A stretch of DNA of 64,000 bases from Sipunculus nudus (taxonomy: Eukaryota > Annelida > Sipuncula > Golfingiida > Sipunculidae). The notes beneath the pieces are model-generated. The model ran no database searches, was not told the DNA's origin, and saw only the letters and a program-made list of their open reading frames with translations. Where the stretch lies: positions 67,542,676-67,606,675 of the forward strand of contig CM049316.1 of NCBI GenBank assembly GCA_026874595.1. The letters are read 5' to 3'. Shown here piece after piece: positions 34,531 to 37,500 of the stretch. Numbering within the stretch: the first letter of the stretch is position 1; each line of letters starts with the position of its first letter. The translations under genes were made by a program, and so were the position numbers.

Positions 34531-37500
34531 CAAAAATTGGAACCCCGCTGTTTCTGACCTCAACCTAGGGTTGAAGGGAGTGAATATTGATGACGTAGGA
34601 GATGGGACCAAGGCTACGTCATCACGACCTCATTACGAGGGTCCACCCGTCCGCCCACTCGTCATGCCCATATACCAGTCCTCTACCTACATCGTAGAAT
34701 CCGTGGACGAGTATCTACAGATACTGAAACATGTAAGTGTGGTCCGTCGATGAGTATCTACAGATACTGAAATATGTAAGTGTAGTCCGTGCACCAGTAT
34801 CTGTAGATACTGAAATATGTAAGTGTGGTCCGTGCACCAGTATCTGCAGATACTGAAATATATAAGTGTCGTCCGTGCATGAGTATCTACTGATACTGAA
34901 ACATGTAAGTGTGGTCCATGCACGAGTATCTACAGATACTGAATCATGTAAGTGCGGTCCGTGCACGAGTATCTACAGATACTGAAACATGTGCGTGTGG
35001 TCCGTGCACGAGCATCTACAGATACTGAAACATTTAAGTGTAGTCCGTGCACCAGTATCTGCAGATACTGAAATATATAAGTGTGGTCCGTGCATGAGTA
35101 TCTACTGATACTGAAACATGTAAGTGTGGTCCATGCACGAGTATCTACAGATACTGAATCATGTAAGTGTGGTCCGTGCACGAGTATCTACAGATACTGA
35201 AACATGTGCGTGTGGTCCATGCACGAGCATCTACAGATACTGAAACATGTAAGTGTAGTCCGTGCACCAGTATCTGCAGATACTGAAACATGTAAGTGTG
35301 GTCCGTGCACGAGTATCTACAGATACTGAAACATGTAAGTATGGTTAATGCACGAGTATCTACAGATACTGAAACATGTAAGTGTGGTCCGTGCACGAGT
35401 ATCTACATATACTGAAATATGTAAGTGTGGTCCATGCACGAGTATATACAGATACTGAAACATGTAAATGTTTATATACAAATAAAACCGTATATTTAAT
35501 GGTTCATTAGAATATTTCTACTTCGTATTTGCTCGTCATAAATAGATGTGAATATACATGACTGCATTGACTCAAGAAAATGCAGGGGATGAGGTGGCAT
35601 CTCAAGTAATATCCGACGTATAGTATAGATACAGATAAATTCAGTATTTTTTTACTGTTCTACTACTATTCAGTATTAATTACTATGAAACTTATGTTTA
35701 AAAGAAAATTCAAGGTCAATCCATTCTTCCCTTTTAGAGAATCCATTTAATCAAAAATAATTGTTAAATATGAATGTTACTAAAAATGGACCAATCATTG
35801 TAATTTTTTTAATGTACAATAACATTTGAAAAGAAAGGGTTTGACACTGGCATCAAACAGATTCTTAAACTAGAGAACCATACGAACAGTTTCATACCAG
35901 TCATCCTATGTATATATTATGGAACCACTATCTCCCTAAATATGGCCCATTTTTAATGCCTCGTACAGCACTAATACTGAAATATGTAAATGCGTTCCAT
36001 GGAAGAGTATCTACACATACTAAACTTCTGAGAGAGATATAATCGGACCAGTACAAATATTGATGAACGTTAGTGTATTGAGATGTATCTACAGCTATCA
36101 AAACATGCAAGTACAGTCCAGGAACTAGATCTATAGACATAGGTACAGAAAAATGTAAGTCAGTGGACGAGTAACTACATATATTAAATCATGTAATCAT
36201 GTAAGCACTGAAACATGTTAGTGTGTTCCGTGTACGAGTATCTTCAGATACTGAAACATGTAAGTGTAGTCCGTAGATAAGTATCTACAGATACTGAAAC
36301 ATCTAAGTGTAGTCCGTGGAGGAGTATCTACAGATATTACATCATGTAAGTGTAGTCCGTGGATGAAACATAAGTGAAGTCCATGGGCGGGGTATCTATG
36401 GATATTGGAATATGTATGTGTTGTCCTTTGATGGTATCCATAAATACTGGACCATGTTAGTGTACTCCATGGCCGAGTATTTACAGATACTGAAGCAAGT
36501 AAATGTGGTCCATGGACGAGTAACTGCAGATAATGAAACAAGTGTTTTGATTTCGATTTTTAATAGAAATTTATCAATTATAAACTCCAGCCGCTGGGAC
36601 ATTTCTTTCAATTAAATAAAACAATTCAATTTTGATAAGGTTTCCTTTGTACTTATACCTGTTTAGCAAAATAATTATGTTATTATCATGCTTAATCCTG
36701 ATTATATGGCATTTTTATCGCACCATATATAAACAAAAGGTAAAACAAAAACGAACAAAAAATGAAGAAAAGTGCCTGAGAACCAAACAGTTTTATTTCT
36801 TTGGCTATATGAGTTCATTTTTATTTGTAGCAAGGTTACATTTACAGTCGTCTGGGAACCCCAAACCTAGACAGTGTAGAATGCACGGTGAAAGACTTAG
36901 AAGGCGGCGCTGGAAGCTTGGCCTTCACTTCAGGTATGGCTGCCATATCCACAGCCTTCCTCACGTTACTCAAGGCAGGGGATCACGTGGTACGTATCCC
37001 ATAAGCCACCGCTTCCGTATGTACAATTTTGTAAAATGAATCATTTGTATCACGTTTGTATCTATAATACGGAAATTTAAGATCTGTCTTAACACTACTA
37101 CCACTACCACTACTACTACTAAAAATAATAATTATAATAATAACAAAAATAATATTAATATTAAAAATAATAATATTAATAATCATAATCGTAAATCAAT
37201 TAAGGTGCATAATGATGTTTTCATTTTTGTTATCATTGTTGTGATTTTGGTTTGACGAATTCAGAAACAATAATTTATGTTTTAAGCTAAAATTCATTCG
37301 GATGCACAATATATTTTACTTGGTGTCAACATGATATTTTATGAACCTGTTAGATTACATGTTTCTGTCACATGATTAACTATGGTTCCTTATAGAATTC
37401 TATTAAGGATGCCAATTCATGGCAGAAGTCTTTTAACCTATGCATTAGCAATATATTTTTCAGGTATGCTGTAGTGCGGTATACAGCGGTACCAGTAAGT

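Follow-up and report, generated by a model that had tools for sequence, protein, structure and literature searches.

A splice junction in the DNA of Sipunculus nudus is followed by seventeen copies of itself, many of which offer a donor sequence of their own. This raises the question of how such an array arose, which donor the spliceosome would use, and whether the surplus donors do anything for the gene that carries them. We addressed this by analysing the gene, its copies and their repeats within the whole 64,000-nucleotide stretch of DNA (the window).

An amplified junction in a PLP enzyme gene

The gene that holds the array, which we call copy 1, has nine exons, A to I (34531-43953). Their borders are GT-AG, and they form a single open frame of 413 residues; there is probably an additional 5' exon upstream of exon A. 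Its joined exons match the PF01053 profile (Cys/Met metabolism PLP-dependent enzyme) with 434.5 bits over profile positions 18-381 of 381 (E = 3.3e-130), and a second copy matches with 408.5 bits over positions 14-381 of 381. Judged by this near full-length family match, the gene product is a PLP enzyme of Cys/Met metabolism. For a 131-residue N-terminal piece, searched with an approximate query sequence, the PDB gave methionine gamma-lyases as best matches (E = 3e-18). The features of the locus are as follows.

34531-34732, + strand: exon A of copy 1, whose last 33-34 bp are the exonic part of the repeat unit (open CDS model)
34700-35473, + strand: donor array of copy 1, with unit 0 authentic and units 1-17 decoys, containing a 5-unit (215-bp) block duplication
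34733-34742, + strand: intron 1 start of copy 1, with the authentic donor CAT/GTAAGTGT (exon model and unit list)
35996-36551, + strand: decayed unit copies in intron 1 of copy 1 (11 places, 24-40 of 43)
36831-36989, + strand: exon B of copy 1 (CDS model)
37464-43953, + strand: exons C to I of copy 1 (joined in phase throughout, with the stop codon at 43951-43953)
48351-57173, + strand: gene copy 2, exons A to I (open CDS model, GT-AG borders)
48520-48734, + strand: donor array of copy 2 (5 units; GT in 3 of 4 decoys)
61444-64000, + strand: gene copy 3 (represented by exons A and B; continues past the window end)
61613-61999, + strand: donor array of copy 3 (9 units; GT in 7 of 8 decoys; authentic donor GTACGT)
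39-9953, - strand: c0, a broken inverted copy of about 32317-45361 (BLAST within the window)

Over 411 codons, copies 1 and 2 differ with dN 0.044 and dS 0.348 (dN/dS about 0.13), which points to purifying selection. We therefore give almost no weight to the idea that the gene copies are pseudogenes and the array a repeat that grew in dead DNA. The inverted c0 would fit that idea, being broken and lacking the part that matches 34595-36544, that is, the end of exon A and the array, but copies 1 and 2 are both fully open over nine exons with GT-AG borders (two exons are seen for copy 3).

The donor array of copy 1 comprises 18 indel-free units of 43 bp, 774 bp in total, with unit starts spaced exactly 43 bp apart from 34700 to 35431. 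TRF recovered it at 34700-35471 (period 43, 18.0 copies, 88% matches, 0% indels, score 1201), bearing out the exact, indel-free register that a first-pass annotation of this DNA had described. The authentic junction of exon A with intron 1, CAT/GTAAGTGTGG, makes up unit 0, and units 1-17 are intronic copies of it. That annotation was also right to call this an amplified exon-intron junction, since the unit spans the boundary; its division into 34 exonic and 9 intronic bp is one valid phasing, although the boundary is ambiguous by one base and the unit holds 33-34 bases of exon A with 10-9 bases of intron 1. As all repeats follow the authentic donor, use of the first donor leaves the coding sequence unaltered.

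A chance origin is excluded: the donor 39-mer of copy 1 finds a best match of 37/39 in its own intron, while no match above 23 arose in 60 Markov-resampled introns. Further into intron 1 lie the decayed copies, which score 24-40 of 43 against a null maximum of 24 (200 resampled sequences), so that the lowest of them is at noise level; at a threshold of 27/43, 8 of the 11 places are also recovered. At this threshold or above, no unit was found on either strand of the whole window outside exon A and intron 1 of the three copies. We also considered a dispersed satellite that landed on an exon and rejected it, both for this absence and because the exonic part of the unit encodes SVDEYL(Q/H)ILKH in an open frame common to the three paralogs.

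Several other repeats were seen in the window. Inside the unit, a palindrome (AGTATC, 4 nt, GATACT; 34710-34725 and equivalent places in other units) is perfect over 6 bp in 14/18, 1/5 and 3/9 units of copies 1, 2 and 3. The columns it occupies belong to the least variable of the unit (P about 0.01, copy 1 decoys), yet they rank second of 43 circular placements and were chosen post hoc, making this comparison exploratory. Where the decayed array ends on its right side, the intron 1 tail of copy 1 (36545-36751) shows roughly 70% similarity to 16157-16404. This tail also occurs in c0, where its left edge is almost the same, while BLAST within the window gave no match to it in copies 2 and 3; the similarity between 36545-36751 and 16157-16404 perhaps reflects a dispersed repeat. 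Elsewhere, a 30-bp minisatellite of about 7 units (25113-25326) lies beside exons of an MFS transporter gene, and its unit showed no match above chance to the two adjacent junctions, which were placed by eye (20/35 and 14/34; null maxima 22 and 21 from 200 base shuffles). Searches of the window with Rfam (gathering threshold) and ARAGORN returned nothing.

Donor choice and its predicted consequences

GT is kept in 14 of the 17 copy 1 decoys and GTAAGT in 11, eight of these reading CAT/GTAAGT and three TAT/GTAAGT. The decoys are thus near-consensus donors, as first described, while the exact CAT/GTAAGT ascribed to most units is found in 8/17. We measured donor strength as U1 pairing (a duplex score), a scoring of the unit starts that the first-pass annotation had proposed. 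In copy 1, the value is -7.4 for the authentic donor; seven of the 17 decoys equal it and none is stronger. The authentic GTACGT of copy 3 scores -3.2, and five of its eight decoys are stronger, at -7.4. Strength alone therefore does not single out the right site, and mis-splicing could be common in copy 3.

Use of any decoy is predicted to lead to an early stop, in 17/17, 4/4 and 8/8 cases for copies 1, 2 and 3, counting decoys that lack GT; for copy 3 exons A and B alone were at hand, but the stop falls within the array. In copy 1, one TGA in the first decoy unit (VSVVRR, then stop) ends all 17 decoy readings. This agrees with the earlier expectation that a unit whose length is not a multiple of 3 would make decoy use truncating, and contradicts the statement that the first two units read open.

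We propose, with a probability of about 0.78, that the array is a splice-junction minisatellite of the kind known as a 'mirage', near neutral for the protein, with the first donor mostly used. A short stretch across the exon A/intron 1 boundary would have been duplicated in tandem, and the array would then have grown and turned over, probably via unequal exchange. The spliceosome would mostly pick the donor nearest the upstream acceptor, which is transcribed first and gives the shortest exon; stray products of decoy use would be cleared by nonsense-mediated decay, leaving the array close to neutral. Splicing from the first donor, with the decoys as intronic ballast, is the most likely outcome.

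The main functional alternative, already raised as a means to buffer or tune expression, is that the decoys form a ladder that diverts a set fraction of transcripts into nonsense-mediated decay, with unit number as an expression dial. The material for it is present: 11/17 decoys carry GTAAGT, 7/17 equal the authentic pairing of -7.4, every decoy truncates, the copies differ in having 18, 5 and 9 units, and downstream repeat units of human IFI6 serve as donors, according to passages of PMC4526556. If the ladder were selected, the donor hexamer should stand out among the unit's columns, and it does not. Across the 17 copy 1 decoys, the mean minority count is 1.33 in the donor hexamer columns and 1.03 in exon-derived columns, and six random columns are as low or lower with P 0.69, in a test that has little power with 17 related units. 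Counting the duplicated block once, which leaves 12 decoys, gives 0.83 and 0.76; pooling 27 decoys gives 2.33 and 2.15.

We thus rejected positive evidence for selection on the decoy donors, and nothing in these columns favours a selected ladder. GT has moreover been lost in 3/17 decoys, unit number is not conserved across paralogs, and published mirages reportedly leave splicing undisturbed (passages of PMC3087553 and PMC3902484). We consider the ladder quite unlikely. The suggestion of expression tuning finds no support here, and the other option offered with it, a neutral oddity, fits better.

The gene carries a second array, at the acceptor of intron 5, which was absent from the first-pass finding.

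40436-40653, + strand: acceptor array of copy 1 at intron 5/exon F (TRF; degenerate units of about 57 bp; 3 decoys, 2 with AG, plus the authentic acceptor)
53447-53640, + strand: acceptor array of copy 2 (2 decoys, 1 with AG, plus the authentic acceptor)
3279-3439, - strand: acceptor array relics in c0 (two decoys, 0 with AG)

AG is present in the copy 1 decoys at 40513 and 40570 and absent at 40456; in copy 2, it is present at 53558 and absent at 53467. Use of these acceptor decoys is predicted to give an early stop in 5/5 cases across copies 1 and 2, counting the two without AG. Among the 16 junctions tested in each of copies 1 and 2, arrays occur at the same two, and none was found at the remaining 14/16 in either copy; the intron 3 donor of copy 1 gave a weak match (23/39, null maximum 22).

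Donor and acceptor arrays in one gene, with splice signals in many decoys, might be taken for an intermediate in intron gain or exon extension, in which a decoy junction later becomes a real splice site, as in a model found in passages of PMC3087553. However, both arrays adjoin existing introns, and each decoy examined leads to an early stop, so that its recruitment would destroy the present protein. We regard such an intermediate as highly improbable.

Array turnover and the boundary between copies 2 and 3

The unit number of the donor array differs among the paralogs, with 18 units in copy 1, 5 in copy 2 and 9 in copy 3. In copy 1, a block of five units is duplicated (units 3-7 against units 8-12, 98.1% identity over 215 bp). 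A diagnostic C (GTGCAC-type) sets 16/17 copy 1 decoys apart from their authentic unit and from copies 2 and 3, where none of the 14 units has it. Together, the block duplication and the diagnostic C suggest that the copy 1 array grew within copy 1 after the copies split, and the pattern of variants makes it seem that the authentic unit at the boundary stayed out of homogenisation.

Copies 2 and 3 relate to each other differently on the two sides of their arrays.

48582-50735, + strand: tract near-identical to 61847-64000 (BLAST within the window), with its left end inside both arrays

Before the array, exon A of the two copies is identical at 154/169 positions (91%), and the upstream sequence is less alike. 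From 48606, inside the array, to the window end there are 4 mismatches in 2130 positions compared (99.8% identity), with exon B identical at 158/159 positions. The identical stretch begins at 48582 in copy 2 and at 61847 in copy 3, in both cases inside a decoy unit. About 2.1 kb of the tract fall within the window, and its far end lies beyond. The tract is best read, from these alignments, as the product of a recent exchange or unequal duplication.

Under the minisatellite reading, the arrays would also be stretches of homology between tandem copies, with the border of the copy 2/3 tract falling inside them. We tentatively suggest, at somewhat less than even odds, that splice-junction arrays act as recombination seams, and that copy 3 is a chimera that joins its own exon A to copy 2 from inside the array onward. 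The repeat runs from the junction into the intron, so a crossover or conversion between copies would fall there and link one copy's exon A to the remainder of another while sparing the coding sequence. If this took place by unequal crossover, another 13.3-kb duplicate would be expected beyond the window. Among the matches listed, our literature searches, which were aimed at other points, found no mention of a splice-junction array as a seam between tandem gene copies. In earthworm metallothionein, intronic minisatellites have been linked to tandem gene duplication and suggested as recombination hotspots, and the passages of that source contain no splice-junction unit (PMC12783039).

An identity switch inside a repeat is also where assemblers err, and mis-joining or haplotype duplication at the repeat could account for the unit number or for the near-identity of copies 2 and 3 past the array; such a join would produce the same picture at the seam. 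The unseen far end of the tract is consistent with this, and for one lancelet mirage, passages of PMC3087553 describe the draft assembly as apparently aberrant. Against an artefact, the diverged units in strict register, the 5-unit duplication and the decayed downstream units look like biological turnover, arrays are present in three diverged gene copies, and the copy 1 array is merely 774 bp long. A partial artefact, which would be compatible with a minisatellite of the mirage kind, is in our judgement unlikely overall; it is very improbable for the copy 1 array itself, while for the seam between copies 2 and 3 it is a real, if minor, contender.

Comparison with known splice-junction repeats

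The first-pass annotation knew of no described case of this form. The form is in fact already known from lancelet mirages and from human IFI6, and the present array adds a further example. The original mirage paper is reportedly that of Canestro in 2002. In Branchiostoma, mirages have been described in Adh3 and in the globins BflGb6 and BflGb9, at both 5' and 3' boundaries and with unstable lengths; the Adh3 units measure 10-72 bp, RT-PCR on mirages suggests normal splicing, and the acceptor-side mirage of BflGb6 differs between two haplotypes, with 6 and 3 repeat units (passages of PMC3087553). TnC was later added to the lancelet mirages, with PGBD5 compared (passages of PMC3902484).

The arrays described here resemble these mirages in form. 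Their tandem, minisatellite-like units contain the boundary and its splice signals (18 in register in copy 1), and many units, though not all, retain GT (14/17, 3/4 and 7/8). Donor and acceptor sides are both affected, the unit length of 43 bp falls within the Adh3 range, and a comparison among paralogs alone indicates unstable unit number and concerted turnover that spares the edge units. Unlike BflGb6, copy 1 has a long array, with 17 extra units; also unlike the lancelet cases, three tandem paralogs carry the array, the same gene has an acceptor array as well, and a seam between gene copies lies within the donor array.

Human IFI6 (6-16, G1P3) has a donor minisatellite with a unit of 12 bp, a multiple of 3, in 26 copies. 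Turri, Cuin and Porter reportedly described this minisatellite in 1995. Both there and here, splice donors come in series from a minisatellite located at the end of an exon. The IFI6 downstream units are used to make isoforms (passages of PMC4526556), whereas with the 43-bp unit no decoy use (0/17, 0/4 and 0/8) is predicted to avoid an early stop.

Growth of minisatellites at exon borders in recently duplicated genes has further parallels. Zhuo in 2007 is said to have reported introns derived from tandem arrays. Variable tandem repeats at exon-intron boundaries are known from human paralogs in segmental duplications (passages of PMC2812944). These cases involve novel introns or variable coding repeats, in contrast to the arrays here, which bring no coding gain.

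The copy 1 array provides a long, clean example for a little-known class of repeats that offers the spliceosome donors of equal strength. The three paralogs, with 18, 5 and 9 units and a weaker authentic donor in one of them, are natural replicates that make a direct test of donor choice possible. The boundary between copies 2 and 3 suggests that such arrays may also help to shuffle exons among tandem gene copies.
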